Assembly: GCA_963924555.1 (NCBI GenBank)
Contig: OZ004587.1
Span: 496,001-560,000, forward strand
Direction of reading: 5' to 3'
Source of the DNA: Crambe crambe
Taxonomy: Eukaryota > Porifera > Demospongiae > Poecilosclerida > Crambeidae
Length of the DNA stretch: 64,000 bases
Shown here one piece after another: positions 30,861-41,725 of this stretch; position 1 is the first letter of the stretch, and the number at the start of each line of letters is the position of its first letter. A program made the translations under genes and the position numbers. The notes under the pieces are model-generated. The model had not been told where the DNA came from, searched no databases, and worked only from the letters and a program-made list of their open reading frames with translations.

Positions 30861-31546
30861 GGAACTAGAGTGAGGCAAGAGTAAGTAGAGCCTTAAACTG
30901 GTTCTGTAAACATGGTCATTTATTTTATTGGATTGAATGAGACATGTCCTACATACATACATATGCAAAGTATTAGTTCATCCAAAAGTTAACACATGCT
31001 CATTTAGCATATACGTAGGTTGAGTGAAAGGCCAACTCTTCTTCAACACTCCACCTTTCCTCTTAACCAACAGGTCTGGACTGCTCCACATACCAGGGTC
31101 TGCAACAGGTCAGTAAAATCTAACAGGTCTGTAACAGGTCCATATTTTTGGACTGTATCAGACCTGCTGCCTCACGGACTGCCTACAGATCAAAAATTAG
31201 TACTTTGGTGCCTATAGGATGTACTCTTTTTTAATTGTTACATACCTGCTTACAAGTTGGATTTTTCATCAAATACACTAGTTCAGGGGTCAGAAAAGTT
31301 AAGAGTATCACGTACCATAGCTAGTCAGGTACATTTGACTATCAGAAATACTTACTGTTCTTGTTCGTGGGTCTTCCTTGGATCGTGATAGATCCTCCAC
31401 AATGAGCTCCTCCGTACATCCTCCAGCTACGTAGCTCAGCTGTTTCAGATCTCTCAGATTCGTTCTAGTCCTCAGCTCAAGATAGAAAAGGCGGAGCTAG
31501 TGGGCGTGGCTATACGATATGAATAGGTGCATGCGCAGTTCTCTAT
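30861..31546. other. Upstream flank of convertase remnant, end of unit A
   Basis: Matches unit B 61334-62157. A possible exon near 31376-31440 on the minus strand ends in a conserved donor (AACAG/TAAGTAT) in both units, but its protein is not recognised. The segment stops at the KDZ element's left inverted repeat. Confidence 0.4.
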
Positions 31547-31625
31547 CGCGTATTATCACGCAATCTATAGTAGGGAGTTATCAGCTTTTATCTAAATACG
31601 CAGCAAGGATTTATCAGCACCTGTG
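31547..31625 (+). repeat. Left terminal inverted repeat of the KDZ element
   Basis: Reads CGCGTATTATCACGCAATCT, continues through GGGAGTTATCAGCTTTTAT and ends near CAGCACCTGTGT. It pairs with 40471-40550. Confidence 0.92.
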
Positions 31626-32712
31626 TCGACCATAGATCATGCATTGGGTTCACGTAGCACGCGCACTACGTCAGGCATGACCATGTGGCTGTAGTGGAGA
31701 GTGCTGCCTCCTGTCATTTTTCTTTCTTTTTTTCCCACTATGAGTAAGTCAGCTAGAGTAGCCAAACTTTGTAGCTACAAGAGAGTATCAAGTACTTGGT
31801 GCATCGATGGCCTAGGGTGACCGTGTTATGCCCTTGCACTAGTCTTGTTTCCAGATTATGTACATTTTGGGTAGAGGCCATCTGGGGACTTTAGCAGGGC
31901 TGATCCAGGATTTCCTTGGATGGTGGCTGGTGTTGCCAGTAGACCATAGTCCAATCTGACCATGTGGCCTATTTTGGCTCGTGTTACAGCTATTTAGATA
32001 CATGGAAAAAGGACAAAAGCAAATAAAGCTACATATATAGCTCTTGTTCTGAAATGCAAAGTAAGCCGCTAGAAGAACTACTCCATCAGTGCCATCGGCT
32101 GATCAACCAATTGTGGGAGTTTATATGAGATCTACCTAATATTCTAATAGCCCAATTCAAGCTCCTGTTAGTCCAAATCTTGCTCAGAGATCTGTCCAAT
32201 TAAAACCCAGAATGAGCTACATAAGTGGACCTAGAGAATCTTTAGAGCAAGCTGAGAAGATGTTGTGGATGATATTTTAAAAGCATGAAATTACATAGGA
32301 AATCACTGGATGGGTACTCTTCTCAACCTCACAAATGTAACAGGGCAGCCTTTTAAACATTTAAGCTTCTCATGTCAGTCATTTGATAAAAGACATTGTG
32401 TGCTGCCACTGTCACAATGTGATTTTTGCATATCTTGAACAATCCCCAGATGTTCTCCTGAGCTTCGTGTGAAAACATCTGGGAAATGAGAGAGAAATTT
32501 TCTCTGGCTTTCCAGCCAATCATTACTTATCAACAAGGTTCTAAAGATAATAATTATGGATATCAATACATGTATGTATACTGAAAATGATCACACATAA
32601 TTTGGTAAAAACCATAACTATTATTCATTAATTTAGCTATGATGAGGTAATAATTGTCTCATTCTGAGTAGTATAATATATATTTATAGCAATGTTACTC
32701 TTTATTATGTAG

Positions 32713-35189
32713 ATAAAAAAATTAGCAATGAAAACAAACAGGTACTTGAAGGTTTGTTCCAGAGAGGTATGGTATCAACATCAGTGACCAATACCCTTTC
32801 AATGAGCCTAATTGAGAAAGCTGTTGATGAAACAAAACTTGATAGGAAGATAGTGAAGGTAATATCTGTTTGTTGATTTCCTAACCCAATATGATTGTGT
32901 TAGCTATGCAACTAACTGTATGCAGCAAACAAAATTCTAAATGGTGCACCCCAGCTCATGGGATGAAATTCAAAGTTCAATAGCAACTTGATTGGTGCAA
33001 TTTTTAGCTATGGGCTATATGCCTTAAGAGCTTATGAGGCTCAAGTACGTAGGATACAATGCTGTTATGAAACTTAGAGCAGCTGTTATAATTATATCAA
33101 ATAGTGCACTTCCGAAAAGGCATTCTTTATTGGTGAGCTGGATTACCATTATATCAAGACTAAGCAGACAGCTGAAAGTCTTAATATGCTGCTCCATAGT
33201 ATGTTTGGGTAACAGTTTGTAAGGTCGTGTCTTTTTCAACTGCTTTTTAACCACAAAATCCATGAAAATTTCATCCCATGAAAATTTCCCACTATGCAAT
33301 ACAGTCATGGGATTTAGAGTAGCTAGCTATGATATCACATGTACTTGGACAGCTTAGGTGGGGATGGATTCTGAGTCCAGGAGCTTATATGGACCAATAA
33401 GTCATGGTATAAAAGACAATGTCGTAACTACTATGACCAGAGCTATGTTATCTCATAACTACAACTATGCATTCTGGGGTAGGTGGCAACAGGGAACTGG
33501 ATTCTTAAATGCTCTTTTCTAGGATGAATTGAATTCAGTCCGTGCTGTCTGTTTCACTAGCACTTATGTGTATACTCAGGAGGGCATGATATCGGCCTGA
33601 TAATAAAAATTTTGTCATTATGCAGAATTGGATTGGCAATTGTAAAAGAAAGGTAGAAAATACTACTCAACAAGGTGCTGAACATGATGTACCCATTCCA
33701 AAACGACGAATTTTTCATGGATATCATGAATTTATGAAGACGCAGAAGGGCCATAAAGGTATGGTTATCCTATCCAGGTTCCAGTTTTGACATTAGCTAA
33801 TTACTGGTGAAGAAAGTATGATGTAGCAACAGAAAAAATATGGAGTCTCAAAAGCAAAATCATTAGCAGTGCCATTATGACAACTCTTTGCACTGGTTTA
33901 ATATACTCTCTGGCTCACCATACTCATAGGATCTGGAACTACCATTGGCGAATGCTCATCAGCAATTAGCTCTTCATGGAAAAGACTTTCTGTGGAAGAG
34001 AAAGATGAATTTCGTGATAGGGCAAAAAGAAGAAAAGAAGGTGAAGGGATACCACCTGCACAGAAGTGGAAGGAAATTCAAAAATCCATGAAGAGAATCA
34101 ACCAAGAGGTACGATTAGAAGGTTGAGATAGACCACACACCTTTACATAATGTTTACTGCATTACTAGTTACATTGAGAAGATGGGAGGAGAGGGTGTTG
34201 CAATGCTGTGGGCCAACGGAAGCTACTACCGTAGCTACAGTAATTTGGGCCAAAAGTGGCTAGATAAAAATGAACACATTTCATCAATGTTTGTCAGCCA
34301 CATGCGTTCTGGTAAGTCAACAATAGAATTTGATTCATATTAGTTATTATTCTATGTATTCAGCAAAGAATCAACCAACAGAAGAACTGACAATCACAAA
34401 AGATCAAAGAAGCATTTTCTTAACAAAGTACAGTAAGTATTCCACAGATGTAATCATATACTTATTACATGGGTGTATCATTCCATAGAGAATCTGACTG
34501 GAAAGAAGAGTTGTAAACAAGTCCCTTGTGCTCATAAGTCCTTTAATATCCTTCATATGCCTGGGGGATTAGGGTTTAAAAATCCAAGATTGTACAAAAT
34601 TTGTGAATTGCGAGAAATCATAAATTATCAAGATGACATCATATTTGTCAGAGGTGAGTTTACTGCACAGACACTATACCCTTTTACATGCCCATTCTCA
34701 ACCTTTCTCTTATGACTCCTAATACTGTCAGTTTTATCATTATAAAAACAGCATGAAGACATACCTATCAGGAGTACGTAGCTAGCTTCTAGTAATGGTA
34801 ACACAGTCCATTCCATTCTGATCTTTCGTGTGACTGATCAGCATACACAGGATTAAGTTGGCACAGGGTTCTGGTGAATCCACTGAATAAAGCACACCAT
34901 GATTTGCTGTGATATTATAATTGGACACTATTTCATTACATTATTCAGTTGCTCCACAATCTCAACCCAATACATCCTCTTCATCCACTCCACAAGTGAT
35001 CTCCTCCATAACTACTGCAGCAACTTCATCCATCCCTCAAGCTATCTCCTCCATAGCTACTACATCAACAACCCATTTTCATGCTCCCGTACCTTCAGTA
35101 TGTATATGAGAAAACTATTATGACAATGATTGTACTTTCTGTCATTATAGGCTCCTATGCGGACACCTGTGTCTGTAAGAATTATATGA
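32713..35189 (+). CDS. Homeodomain-like plus HMG-box-like protein, KDZ-element accessory gene
   Basis: Exons 32713-32858, 33626-33758, 33930-34108, 34179-34311, 34364-34432, 34489-34653, 34949-35097 and 35151-35189 join in frame to a stop at 35187-35189. Exons 1-2 form a homeodomain-like helix-turn-helix (VLEGLFQRGMVS, then VKNWIGNCKRK, with Trp48, Asn51 and a basic end). Exons 2-3 form an HMG-box-like segment (GYHEFMKTQKGHK, then ISSSWKRLSVEEKDEF). The next part has a WLDKNEHISSMFVSHM segment and the tail is Ser/Thr-rich; neither is recognised. A role binding the element's ends or DNA in the nucleus is inferred. The 5' exons are unresolved: a Pro/Ser-rich candidate at 32063-32277 has an in-frame TAA near 32136, and an ATG lies at 31740. 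Confidence 0.68.
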
Positions 35190-35933
35190 ACAGAACAAAG
35201 AGAACAAAGAGGAACAAGTAGCTAATGATGAATTTTCATAATAATGTTTATAGCAAGGACATAATATTTACCAGGGGTGGTAGGGCTTGTCTTGAGTGCC
35301 TTCGTGTGACTGGTATAATTCAGCAAGCAGAGTTATTGATGTGAAGTTCATTCCTCACAGGGGGAGGAAGGTCATCTATTTTTGGGTAATAAAAAGTGTG
35401 ACCACACTAGCTAGGATGTGAAGTGTGCCATCTAGGGGGTCGGGGGGCATGCTCACCCAGGAAAATTTTAAGCCTCATTGGATTGGATCTGGTGCATCCA
35501 CTGAGGTTCTAGGGTGATATCTTGATTCCCACTGAATGTTATAGCTTGTTAGCAAGCTGAAAAACAACTATTTCAGTTATACTTATTAAGAACATGATGT
35601 CATAGTCCATCATTTTATAGCCCCACCTTCTGAATATTGAAGGCAAACAGTTGACAAACAGTTGAACAAGTTCTTTTGCAATTGCTTCTAGAATTACCTG
35701 GGTAATAGGATCACTGGTTCTTAGGGCTATTGCTTCAGGATAGTTTGTGTGTCCCTAATCACATTGGGGTATGTGTAGCTAGTCATTTCAGATCAAGTAA
35801 TGACAGTTTTGGAGATTAGCCACGGAGTTTGTTCAATACACAAATAATATTACAAAAAAGGTAAACTGATGATATAAACAAGTATCTTCTGTGTTATTAG
35901 TCTGGTTGTTCATAATATTATTGTACACCTTCA

Positions 35934-38900
35934 TCACGACCCACTGCAGCCACTATAATAATCGTCAACTGTTTCTTTCTAAAAGAGTAGATAGCTGAAT
36001 GAAATAAAGCAGTATTGCAACTGTTATACACACCTTTTCATATAAACGCAACTGATCTAATTGGTATCTTTGAATAGCCCTAGCTTTCAATATCTCAGAT
36101 ATGTCCTCCCTGGCATTATCTTCATCAGAATCTGAGGTATGTGCCTTTATGTATGTAAGCACGGACACACGAACACAAACATCACAGTTACTCATAGTAT
36201 GTGTCATCAACCCAGTCAATATTAACACACCTGTACAATGTAGTCCTCATTAGTTTCACTAAATAAGCCCTCTGAAGTCTCCATTTCCTATTGATTGAAT
36301 AGGCATATTTATACCACTCGTCAGACCAGCCTCTCCAATACTTACATCACTCATCAGACTAGCTTCTCCAATATCGTCCTCATTTACATCACTTGTCACT
36401 GTTGCCAGACTAGCCTCTCCAATACTGTCCTCATTTACATCACTCATCACACCAGCCTCTCCAATATTTACATCACTCATCAGACTAGCTTCTCCAATAT
36501 CATCACTCGTCAAGATCTCCACATCTATCTGAACAGGGAAACATGACACTTAGCAGACAATTCATAGTAACATACCTAGATCCTGGTTGAATGGGTCCTC
36601 TGAGGTCAGCTGAAGGAGTAATTATCTTAATAATTACCTCACATAGCTAAACACAATAACATACTTCTCCGGTTACGTGCACTTGTTCCAAACAAGCTTC
36701 CAATAGCTGATCTGGGATGAGTGGTATATCAAGTATCATAGGCCCCAAAAACTCAGTAAATTTATTGCAATATAAAAGGTAATTCACTGATTTCTTGACC
36801 AAGAGCTGTTTGCATAAACAGATGGCACCTTTTTTCATACTATCCTTATTTGATTGTATGTAGTCAAGCACAATTTGGACTTCTGCTAGAGAATTGCTAA
36901 TAGTCCTCTTCATTTCCTCTTTCAACATTTCTATTTCTTCCTTTGCTCTCTCTTGTAAATGCCATGCATCAATCAGTTGGTTTCTCAAACTTGCTGGAAT
37001 ATCACTTGTGGATGCCTGATTGAACCATATGACATCTCTTGAACACACCTCATTCATGGTTATCACCCTGGGATGTTTGTTCCATTCATGTTCATTGTAT
37101 TTTTCAACCAAGGCTTTCAGGCTGCCAGTAATAGATGTTATTTGCTTGCTGATTTTCTGGCTTAATTCATGGCCACCTATGTATGTACAAAAACGGCTTC
37201 GAATCAATAAGATTACAACATAAACCTTGTTCTTACTGGCATATTTAGCTTTGACATCAAGTAAGAAAAATCTCTCCTGCGATTTAGTGGAAATTCTTTG
37301 CATCATTTGTGTCTGCTTGATTCTATTGGACATCTCCCGGACTGTCTTGTATTCAGTAGATGCATCTGTCCATCGCCTGATCTTATGCTGTCTTTCAAAG
37401 TTCAGCATGCTTTTTTCAATTCTGTAAAGGAAAATCATTAGGTATTACATCCAGACGCTATGGTGTCATGAAATATTATTACGCATTAAGTTGCAAAATT
37501 AGTTCAGGGATGTTGTTACAAGTGGGTTCCTGCAGATCACATCTAGAATACACAAAATAACATTAAAATTAAAGGAATCTTGCATGTGGTGGTCAAACCT
37601 TGTTTTAATCTGGATCTCAACTAAATCACAATATTCAATCTTCCATTTTGGTAATTTGATGAGATTTGCTACAATATATTAATGATTAAAGGCATTCCAT
37701 AATTGATTGAATTTACACTGAGGTGAGAATGACTTCTCTCTCTCACTGCACCACTGGGATATAACATCACTTGTAACTTCAGTAGTATTAGCTGTTATAA
37801 TAATAATTGAGCACTTGGGTAAATTACGATAAAGTTCATACCAGGCAGTGAGGATAACAAAAAAAGCACTTGTTTTTTGGAATCTTCCAGTACTGAATGT
37901 CCTCTGTGCATTCGTGAAGTTAGAAGAGTGGCTACAATAATAATACAGTTACTATGTAAGCAGCAGTGCAGTAAGAAAACTATGAATGAAGCCATTTAAA
38001 ATATTTTATCATAGAGGTGGTCTTTATTATAGAGGTTGTCAGCTTAAATAGAGGTTAGTAAATACAAATAATACCAAGTTTGAGGTTTGCTTCCCTTCCA
38101 AGATGGAGTAGTATATCAGTTAACACATCTATACGATGACTAGGTCTCATCTCCTTGGTCATTCTTGAGTAGCGCCTGAGTTTTGACCACAACCTTTCTA
38201 CTACCTCTCCATCAGTCAGGCCAAAACCTGTTTGTTTTTCTTGGACTATACATAATCTGAAGGGATGAATAGCATGCTAATTATTGGGGGGGGAAGGAAA
38301 AAGGAAAGAAAGTTACCTGACACTTGGCCTGATGTCCATAGACATGAAATATAGGTATAGCCAGTTGTACATTACTCAAAAGTTCACCATTACCACTTGC
38401 CTATAATAAATATAGCAAAGCTGAAATAACTAGCTTAGCATGATTAAACTACAGGCTTACATGGAGATGTTTCTTAAGCATACATGCAATGTCATACAAT
38501 AGATGTATTCGCATTCTTTCATTCTGTTCCTTCATTTCTTTCAACATCCAAACAGAGTAGGCCAGTCTAAATCACATGATGTATTATTTTTTTTATCATT
38601 GGAGTTTGAAATTTGTTCACCTCTCTCCATGCTTCAGGTTGATGAATCTTTTTGGGAACTCATGTCTACATGCACGACCAAAAATAGCAGTTTCATCAAG
38701 TGCTGAATATCGTCCTGATGATTTCAGTGGGTGTCCAGCAAGAAATCGATTGCATCCCTATATATGAAGTGTACACAATTTATAAAAAAATATTATAGGC
38801 CATTAGTTCAAATTCACAGAATCAGAGGAGTTGTGTTTATAGGTTGAAATAAATCGATCGACAGCTGTTTGATTACCAAACATCAAATTCCCATGAAGGG

Positions 38901-40436
38901 GTTCACGAACACTTTTACCAGAACTTTTCTTCCTTGACAATCCAAACATGGCATCAAATGACTCAAACAAATCTCCTTCTTCCTAAAGAGACTTCTTTAT
39001 TCTATATCTGACCAAACAGATGATTATATATCTTACACTTGGACAAGCAAGACATGTATTTCCTCTGGGAAAGGAGGGGCAAAACTCTGTCAAGTACCTT
39101 TTCCTGTACTTAAAATATCTAACAGATTCAGAAATATGATAATCAGGCACATTATTAATATACCTACCTACCTGTACTCTTCAAATGAATCAATTATAGC
39201 TGGATACACTTTGGAATCCTGTATAAAATAGTAAAACTAGGATATAGAATAAGTATTATACATAATCACCTGGGATTGGGATAAAATAGAATACCATGGC
39301 CTCCTCAGTTTAAGTGCGTGAACAAAATCCTTCACTGCCACCTGACACTCAAGTAAAAGTGCCTCTAACCAATCTAGAAGATCAAAATGGAAGGCTTGTA
39401 TGGGGGATGATGGAGTTGCTGGCCACAGATTATAGCGAATAAGAGTGACAGCTTCTGGTTCACAGTGGCAAAATACCACAGACAAATTATGCTGGTTTCC
39501 TTTTTAAAAAATTAAACTTAAATAACATTGATAACAGAATAATTTGACTTACCAAAGCCATCCAAGCAAGCTAATGATTTCAGATATTTGCCTGAACAGT
39601 TATGGTCACAACAAACCATCCTAAATTTCATTAGTCATAATTATACATTATTATTAAATTATAGCCACACCTTCCATACTTCCAATAGATGATAGATGTT
39701 CATGTACTGGTGATTTTTCATTGCACATTGATGGCAAAAGTGGGAGTAGGGTCCACAGGATTGACAGCGGACAAGAGCAGGCATTCCACAATAACATTTC
39801 CATTCATGTGGTGGAGCACAGTTCTCAACATGTGCCATAAATAGTGCTGAATAAAATACAGATGGTGGGATCACCCCATGCAACACTGGTTTAAAGCAAC
39901 ATACAATCTCTGAGATTCTTCCATGAGTCTGATAGTGCATGTTGTCTTGACTCGTAGGACTGACGTGGTCGTACACATTCAGGCTGAATATCACACTCCC
40001 GACCACCCCCAATATCATCATACAAATCAACTTGGGGAGGCTGTTGTGTGTGAGGGAAATGCTCACCATCATCAATGCTGTTTCCAGCTGCTGGAAACTC
40101 AGAGCTTACCACTTTTGATCTGCCTGTCAGTGAATCAGAGATAATATTTTTTGCCTTGATAGTGGTTCGCTTCCTACGCCTAAACCCTTTCCCTTTTGAG
40201 TAGTGATTGAGTAAGGAAGCTGCATACATAGGGATGACTATAAGTGTGACCAATAACTGATTTAAAGGCTAGGTAATAAAATATCAAAGAGTAGATTATT
40301 ACAAGATACTTACCCACGAATAAACAGTCACTTTAGTCACTGAAAAATAGGAAGACTCACCGTCAGCAGAACACAGAACGATGCACTTGCCACGTGGGTG
40401 GGTGGGCGTAACGCACGGTAGCTTTGGGGCGCGCAT
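35934..40436 (-). CDS. KDZ (Kyakuja/Dileera/Zisupton) transposase, probably one or two frame defects
   Basis: Exons run from an ATG at 40434-40436 (40361-40436, 39905-40219, 39671-39846, about 39550-39620, 39270-39499, 39172-39218, 39037-39103, 38818-38982, 38621-38757, 38461-38566, 38315-38400, 38075-38256, 37842-37931, 37747-37791, 37599-37668, 37483-37542, 37237-37421, 36665-37176, 36346-36528, 36231-36287, 36034-36144, 35934-35978). Landmarks in order: a CxC2-like cysteine cluster (CYCGMPALVRCQSCG), FCHCEPEAVTLIRYNLWPAT, FDAMFGLSRKKS (first Asp), CRHEF and GER, LLYDIACMLKKH (second Asp), IFHVYGHQAKCQ and TDGEVVERLW (Glu). KDZ transposases cut and paste DNA by an RNase H-fold DDE mechanism. 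An extra A near 38236 shifts the frame before TGFGLTDGE, and the 39671/39620 junction is not in phase. The C-terminus has acidic repeats (IGEASLMSDV). Confidence 0.82.
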
Positions 40437-40470
40437 GCGATCTGCGGTGCATTGAGATTTTATTAGTCAT

Positions 40471-40550
40471 ACACAGGTGCTGATAAATCCTTGCTGCGTA
40501 TTTACATAAAAGCTGATAACTCCCTTCTATAGATTGCGTGATAATACGCG
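40471..40550 (-). repeat. Right terminal inverted repeat of the KDZ element
   Basis: Complement of 31547-31625 with few differences (for example TATAGAAGGG for TATAGTAGGG). It lies only 35 bp from the transposase start codon, so the transposase promoter probably lies in or next to this repeat. Confidence 0.92.
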
Positions 40551-41725
40551 AACCGGGTGACTACCAATATACTAATAGCGGGTGCAAGATGTAGTGCAGA
40601 GGATATTTGGATGGTGTGCTGGATTCTGGTGGCTGCAGCAGAGCTTGCTGATATGAGAGCTCAGTATATTCCTCCCCAAATAGATTGAAGTTACATAGCC
40701 CACTTTCCACAACCACCTCTCTTTAACTCAAATCATTTATTCTTTTTTAACTGCATGGACGGCTATCACACACCCTGACAGACCGACAATACAACTCAAC
40801 ATTTTCATTCCTTTTCATTGTGCAAGTCATGATGTAATAAAGTATTGTGAAGCATTAAAAAAAAAAAAAAAAAAAGCTAGGATGGCAGTCCTTGAGATGA
40901 GAGGAAGCAGTGGACCTCAGTCTGGCTTGTGCATCATGTGACCATCAATAGCATATGTCATCCATGCAACATCATCTTCAGAAGACTGACAGTGAACCAA
41001 ACAGGAAGGGTACTTTGTGCCAACTAAGCGGCCAATCTTGATCATACATAGCTACTTTAGAGAGACATGATATCAAGCTGACACGACCACTTGATTTGGA
41101 CTGGCTTGGAGAGCAAGTTAGCAAGGATCGCATTTATTAATTGACATGCAAGGTCTTCCACAAATCTGCACACAACTACTTTCTCTGCTGAAGGATCTCA
41201 TTTGATATGGCCTTAGGCAATCAGTCTGAAACTTATTCAGTTTACACTAAGACGCGCGTTAATTACGTGTCACTTCCTGTCTAGTGGCTTGAACTAGGTC
41301 AATGGAGTGGAATTTGACTTTTAACATTACTGTATTTTACCTGTGATATCTCAGAAATGCTTTCAGCTAGCGCTTTCATTTTTTGATACTTACTAAATGA
41401 AAGGTTGGTGATCATTCTCTTTACCTTTAATTCAGCAAAAACTCAGTGCCCTCTCTGATGTGGCAGGGCTAACTAGTGAGATTTCAGCACGGGTACCTAT
41501 CTTCAGTACACCGGACATCTCGATGGAAAATGGATTGGGCCTTTGATACTTTGCATGTGGATAGCCAACAGTATGAACTATATAATCATGCAAAAAACTT
41601 AAGTCTAGCTTGAAAACACACCGAACTGCAGGACAATGAAATGTCACAAAAAATCAGTGACACAGCAAACTTTCTACTGATAAAAGGTTTGTGAGACTTG
41701 AATGGAGGCTTAACTAGCCCTTTCT
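40551..41725. other. Spacer between KDZ element and unit B
   Basis: No gene recognised. A run of 19-20 A at about 40857-40876 follows an AATAAA signal (near 40833), as in the tail of a reverse-transcribed RNA. Another TACACCGGACATCTCGATG word occurs near 41511. Confidence 0.45.

Follow-up and report, generated by a model that had tools for sequence, protein, structure and literature searches.

Kyakuja-Dileera-Zisupton (KDZ) transposons are the described elements closest to the locus reported here. Zisupton produces 8-bp target duplications and fungal KDZ elements carry TET/JBP genes (PMC12730594), and a platyfish Zisupton isoform has been noted with an F-box (PMC12062965). A further point of comparison is the PIF/Harbinger superfamily, in which a second gene, next to that of the transposase, encodes a DNA-binding protein (Myb/SANT/MADF) 300-400 aa long; in Harbinger3_DR the Myb-like protein recognises a subterminal motif of 9 bp, and the transposase depends on this protein to reach the nucleus (PMC9710019). 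Here we describe a KDZ element lying in a stretch of 64,000 nucleotides of the sponge Crambe crambe (contig OZ004587.1, positions 496,001 to 560,000; this whole stretch is called the window, and its own numbering is used). The element and its relatives share with known KDZ transposons a transposase with a CxC1/CxC2-type cysteine cluster and long inverted ends, and the marks of membership looked for (PF18758, CxC1/CxC2, terminal inverted repeats and target-site duplication) were found. However, the duplications are of 7 bp here (three insertions), and, unlike the TET/JBP genes of fungal elements, the second gene, or companion, is a convergent homeodomain-HMG-GTF2I gene. We propose, with a probability of roughly 60%, that this is a two-gene cut-and-paste transposon whose companion would act as a DNA-binding helper, delivering the transposase to the element ends.

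If this is true, KDZ is one more transposon group relying on two proteins, and the helper role becomes directly testable. The homeodomain-HMG-GTF2I architecture is itself unusual; transposons have it, and so does a gene with no detected transposon marks. The literature searched, whose coverage did not include the founding KDZ papers (Boehne et al. 2012, Iyer et al. 2014), yielded no homeodomain-HMG companion of a KDZ element, and a search on the GTF2I repeat and transposons returned no paper.

Two genes within one pair of inverted ends

The element extends from 31546 to 40559. Its inverted arms, which the earlier note had estimated at about 80 bp, are 81 nt long and 98% complementary, the right one pairing over 40471-40551. 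Both genes are contained between them (Table 1). The many-exon KDZ transposase reported on the minus strand was recovered as a model of 18 exons, single exons of which pass the KDZ and CxC1/CxC2 cut-offs. In the copy at C10:197k (A197), where both genes are open as modelled, the joined transposase reached 142.6 bits for KDZ (PF18758; E 1.9e-41, cut-off 26.6), 38.9 bits for CxC2 (cut-off 27) and 33.3 bits for CxC1 (cut-off 26.9). The window exon 38075-38256, with 182 nt, is one base off the 181 nt on which five copies agree (A197, A353, A616, A884 and B9); B16 has 180, and the B8 and C1 copies lack all or part of this exon. The frame of the window transposase is therefore shifted, and the word "intact", which the earlier note used of the companion gene, applies in this copy to the companion only. 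The acidic stretch of the C-terminal transposase exon (36307-36504, minus strand) contains tandem repeats and varies in length among copies.

The eight plus-strand exons of the companion join, as the earlier note had claimed, into a single open frame with a terminal stop; AG precedes each exon and GT follows the first seven. With a probable start exon, the predicted protein has 338 residues and is open in the window. The string ATGA|gtaagt of that exon is present in six of the ten copy pieces scanned (window, A197, A353, A616, A884 and B9) and absent from B8, B16 and both pieces of the C1 copy. Judging from its sequence, the companion begins with a homeodomain-like part, continues with an HMG box and a conserved middle segment, and has a GTF2I-like repeat towards its end. 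HMG_box_2 (PF09011, cut-off 22.4) gives 25.2 bits with both the window and the B16 proteins, which bears out the HMG-box-like segment of the earlier note, and GTF2I (PF02946, cut-off 27) passes in B16 (31.2 bits) and stays below in the window (22.4 bits). This terminal repeat, the transposase frameshift and the lost left tip go beyond what that note had described. What the companion has in common with TFII-I/GTF2IRD1 is the GTF2I-like repeat, whose best match in the PDB is repeat 2dzr of GTF2IRD1 (E 3.8e-5); it differs in that its repeat is single, is fused with homeodomain and HMG box, and is borne by a transposon. In a set of 5.8 billion proteins, 1274 candidates shared words with the companion and none matched at E 10 or better.

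When the genome was searched with 601 nt of the left end, 29 matches came up; 20 stretches were taken and grouped into 13. Nine copies of this family (fam1) bear the transposase, five of subfamily A on C10 and four of subfamily B on C1, C8, C9 and C16; fragments without either gene also occur, for instance on C18 and C19. Copies lacking the plus-strand gene had been named beforehand as the observation that would speak against the pairing, and companion exons are present in all nine, C10:616k having lost two of them. Over the eight copies joined (the C1 copy was left out), the companion is open across the compared exons in four (window, A197, B9 and B16), while A353 and B8 contain stops, A884 is shifted and A616 (the C10:616k copy) lacks the two exons. 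The B copies have 15 additional in-frame nucleotides in the fifth companion exon.

Table 1. Features of the KDZ element in window coordinates
Feature	Position	Strand	Basis
Left inverted end, without its outer 8 nt (CACCCGGT)	31546..31626	.	arm pairing, copy comparison
Probable companion start exon, ATGA|gtaagt, joining 32713 and encoding MN	31740..31743	+	phase fit
Companion gene, eight exons beyond the start exon: 32713-32858, 33626-33758, 33930-34108, 34179-34311, 34364-34432, 34489-34653, 34949-35097, 35151-35189	32713..35189	+	joined frame, splice borders
Homeodomain-like part, spanning the first intron; NWIGNCKRK from 33626	32715..33660	+	alignment to fam2 homeodomain; under Pfam cut-off in fam1
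HMG-box part, spanning the second intron	33680..34108	+	HMG_box_2, above cut-off
GTF2I-like repeat	34364..34653	+	GTF2I, below cut-off in window, above in B16
Ser/Thr-rich tail exons	34949..35189	+	45-nt direct repeat at 34979-35068
KDZ transposase, modelled exons; possible small extra exons as far as 35940	36259..40229	-	KDZ/CxC matches, copy comparison
KDZ catalytic-core exons, the last (38075-38256) frameshifted	38075..38982	-	KDZ 39.8 bits, frame 38055-38276
Cysteine-cluster (CxC) exons	39270..39846	-	CxC2 43.1 bits (cut-off 27), frame of exon 39237-39503
Right inverted end including tip	40471..40559	.	arm pairing, copy comparison

The same pair in diverged KDZ families

The GTF2I model, run over the genome with E values up to 1 allowed, found 13 matches; when it was applied to 14 control genomes, only one matched, and below the cut-off. 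A Wnt family search of the genome was likewise positive above its cut-off, with none of 14 control genomes matching; Wnt is not known outside animals. Four of the 13 GTF2I matches lie outside fam1, all of them above the cut-off, and three of these adjoin KDZ matches. The three loci are a further KDZ family, called fam2. Its C1 (C1:9539642-9549981) and C3 copies have both genes enclosed by inverted ends, 84-90 nt long; in the C20 copy the first companion exon is missing and no second end was detected, and a fourth copy, on C5, is known from its matches alone. The transposases of fam1 and fam2 are about 44% identical and the companions 27%. By its profile matches, the fam2 companion is a clear homeodomain protein: the C1 protein scores 39.8 bits with Homeodomain (PF00046; E 4e-10, cut-off 22.9) and 41.3 bits with GTF2I (cut-off 27). 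HMG_box_2 remains below its cut-off with the whole C1 protein (18.3 bits) and above it with the HMG segment of C3 (23.6 bits). PDB matches of the fam2 companion include engrailed homeodomains (1.5e-6), GTF2IRD1/TFII-I repeats (3.8e-5) and TFAM HMG boxes (0.0019).

The fam1 companion is read as having a homeodomain-like part because it aligns end to end with proteins that include this clear fam2 homeodomain (hhalign against fam2 plus a solitary gene considered below: 97.5%, E 5e-12, 271 columns) and because an intron directly before NWIGN/NWI is common to fam1, fam2 and the solitary gene. When single sequences of the N-terminal part only are compared, the match is weaker (62.6% for fam1-fam2, 41.8% for fam1-solitary gene). 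The same evidence bears on the notion that open stretches were joined into a second gene that does not exist, conceivable insofar as the exons were picked by eye. Given that the joined proteins produce Pfam matches above cut-off, that the splice borders are correct and the intron before NWI is shared, and that the profile match of fam1 with fam2 and the solitary gene runs from end to end, this notion is already disfavoured and appears very improbable.

For a genome-wide view, KDZ matches, which are lower bounds, were grouped into 27 clusters of our own definition, and six companion searches led to 30 clusters; two of these are marginal, with E 0.08 and 0.67, and may be homeodomain genes of the ordinary kind. 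A companion lies within 13 kb at 19 of the 27 KDZ clusters, a KDZ match is found at 19 of the 30 companion clusters, and the 19 pairs are, without exception, arranged tail to tail. Because duplicate clusters are not independent, the pairing argument rests on families, and six diverged groups are paired: fam1, fam2, fam3 (two loci on C5), fam4 (C11), fam5 (C10:2911k and C1:8796k) and C9:8781k. The fam5 matches were initially weak (E 0.034 and 0.042); on reading, both loci show the same series of parts. Eleven companion clusters have no KDZ match, one of them being the solitary gene and another, C3:1817k, having a CxC2 match about 9 kb off.

Alignment of the fam3, fam4 and fam5 companions shows a homeodomain-like start, an HMG-like part and the middle segment, and when their profiles were compared with that of fam1, fam2 and the solitary gene, the values were 93.6, 80.8 and 92.1%, respectively. 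A single-sequence structure prediction of the fam5 middle segment (48 residues) produced one long helix with pLDDT 64.7 and pTM 0.25, which is not usable. In the fam3 copy L045 (C5:8366601-8376500), where frameshifts are probable by eye, a proline-rich stretch is followed by an Ulp1-like protease frame (L045:5394-6803, plus strand; PF02902 18.5 bits, below the cut-off of 20.7); the companion parts and this protease may form one protein. By eye, L045:2975-3325 (plus strand) resembles the start of the Ulp1-like frame, with no Pfam match, and L045:287-598 (plus strand) is a reading frame with the look of a piece of a retroelement integrase.

The solitary gene and the role of the companion

The solitary gene (C20:489339-491245, plus strand) encodes, by model, 440 residues with its parts in the same order as in the companion. 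It scores above the cut-off for GTF2I (37.5 bits) and below it for HMG (20.1) and homeodomain (13.6). Its protein matches its own locus only (genome search, E up to 1), and 13.1 kb around it contain no enclosing inverted pair and no CACCCGG tip; there is no KDZ match around it either. In a tree of six companions, the solitary gene, fam1 and fam2 are separated from fam3, fam4 and fam5 with support of 100/99, and fam1 and fam2 are joined at 87/88. Since this tree has no outgroup and its end branches approach or exceed 2 changes per site, capture and domestication are indistinguishable: the companion may derive from this gene, or the gene may be a companion that was domesticated. A wider scenario, in which the KDZ elements of this animal are a two-protein group with a homeodomain-HMG helper, such partners fed host regulatory genes, the C20 gene arose by domestication of a companion, and the GTF2I-type repeat of vertebrate TFII-I had an early history in transposon helpers, is speculative and rather unlikely.

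What is directly seen is that both genes lie inside one pair of ends, that the layout recurs across diverged families and that the domains are recognisable. The earlier note had suggested that the companion guides the transposase to DNA or regulates the element, and either role is something we infer. As a helper, the companion would have to be expressed and to contact the transposase; its homeodomain would recognise short sites that recur within the inverted ends (80-90 nt), its HMG box would bend the ends, and the protein would carry the transposase to these ends or help it enter the nucleus, in the manner of the Myb-like PIF/Harbinger protein. The resemblance is one of layout, as the transposase superfamily and the DNA-binding domains are different (no Harbinger or Myb model appeared in the Pfam scans of transposase and companion), and the helper role was shown there and is inferred here.

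In favor of a helper stands the fact that unused cargo should be lost at the divergence of fam1 and fam2, while the companion keeps homeodomain, HMG box and GTF2I repeat. This also bears on the idea of a host gene captured by chance and carried as passive cargo with no role for the element, an idea that fits the existence of a solitary gene with the same architecture and the lack of visible constraint within families. With the companion kept in six diverged groups in an identical orientation (19 of 19) and its domains preserved at 27% identity, passive carriage seems improbable. Less probably than a helper, the companion would be a captured transcription or chromatin factor that switches on the element's transcription, sets its timing or protects the element against silencing. 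Gene regulators are where homeodomain, HMG box and GTF2I-like repeat occur as domains, and the TET/JBP genes of fungal KDZ elements have been proposed to aid escape from silencing (PMC12730594); three DNA-binding modules, however, suit the recognition of ends equally well.

Several results weigh against the proposed helper. Neither exon/intron identity nor dN/dS makes any constraint visible within families: the A197 and B9 companions are 97.4% identical in exons and 96.6% in introns, with a within-family dN of about 0.02 and dS of about 0.03; the fam2 C1 and C3 companions are 99.1 and 98.9% identical, with dN 0.008 and dS 0.014; and the transposase is no better (0.012 and 0.0135). No companion was detected at eight of the 27 KDZ clusters (C3:5384k, C8:6719k, C18:1282k, C18:1300k, C3:3546k, C3:3151k, C3:2941k and C3:1925k), and none was seen at C18:1300k, the sole one whose sequence was read. 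No Pfam model passes its cut-off in the companions of fam3, fam4 and fam5. Finally, PF00046 has no match in the window protein and gives 15.6 bits in B16, under the cut-off of 22.9, so that the homeodomain-like fold claimed in the earlier note holds through fam2 and the alignment and not through a Pfam match of the window protein itself.

Element ends and the spread of copies

Other copies reveal the true fam1 tip as CACCCGGTT, which is common to the fam1 and fam2 ends; the outer 8 nt of the left tip are gone in the window and in the C10:616k copy. No target duplication was found at the window copy, where this tip is lost. Perfect 7-bp duplications flank the insertions of B9, fam2-C1 and fam2-C3 (GGGAGAG, TAAGTTT, ACTGAAG), and imperfect ones those of A197 and A884. 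The fam1 end contains three TTATCA sites, and the fam2 end has one TTATCA and one TAATCA. Six of 300 shuffles reached the same score and several patterns tie, and these shared sites are thus a weak lead to a possible recognition motif.

The five A copies (C10 at about 197k, 353k, 527k, 616k and 883k) were considered as independent insertions, and this was rejected. All have a common right flank, which A616 shares with the window over 1087 nt at 98.6% and which was followed over shorter stretches in A884, A353 and A197; they are therefore duplicates of one insertion, spread by dispersed segmental duplication. Between A197 and B9/B16, the companion half is about 97.5% identical in exons and 96.5% in introns, and the transposase half about 99%; the difference between the subfamilies looks as if halves of the element had been exchanged. 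On C18, near 2009.9k, 2084.9k and 2124.5k, the left 677 nt of the element occur at about 94% identity. No second end was found there in about 14 kb, and the three loci lie in 10-12-kb segments with 98.7-99.5% identity to one another: a duplicated truncated end.

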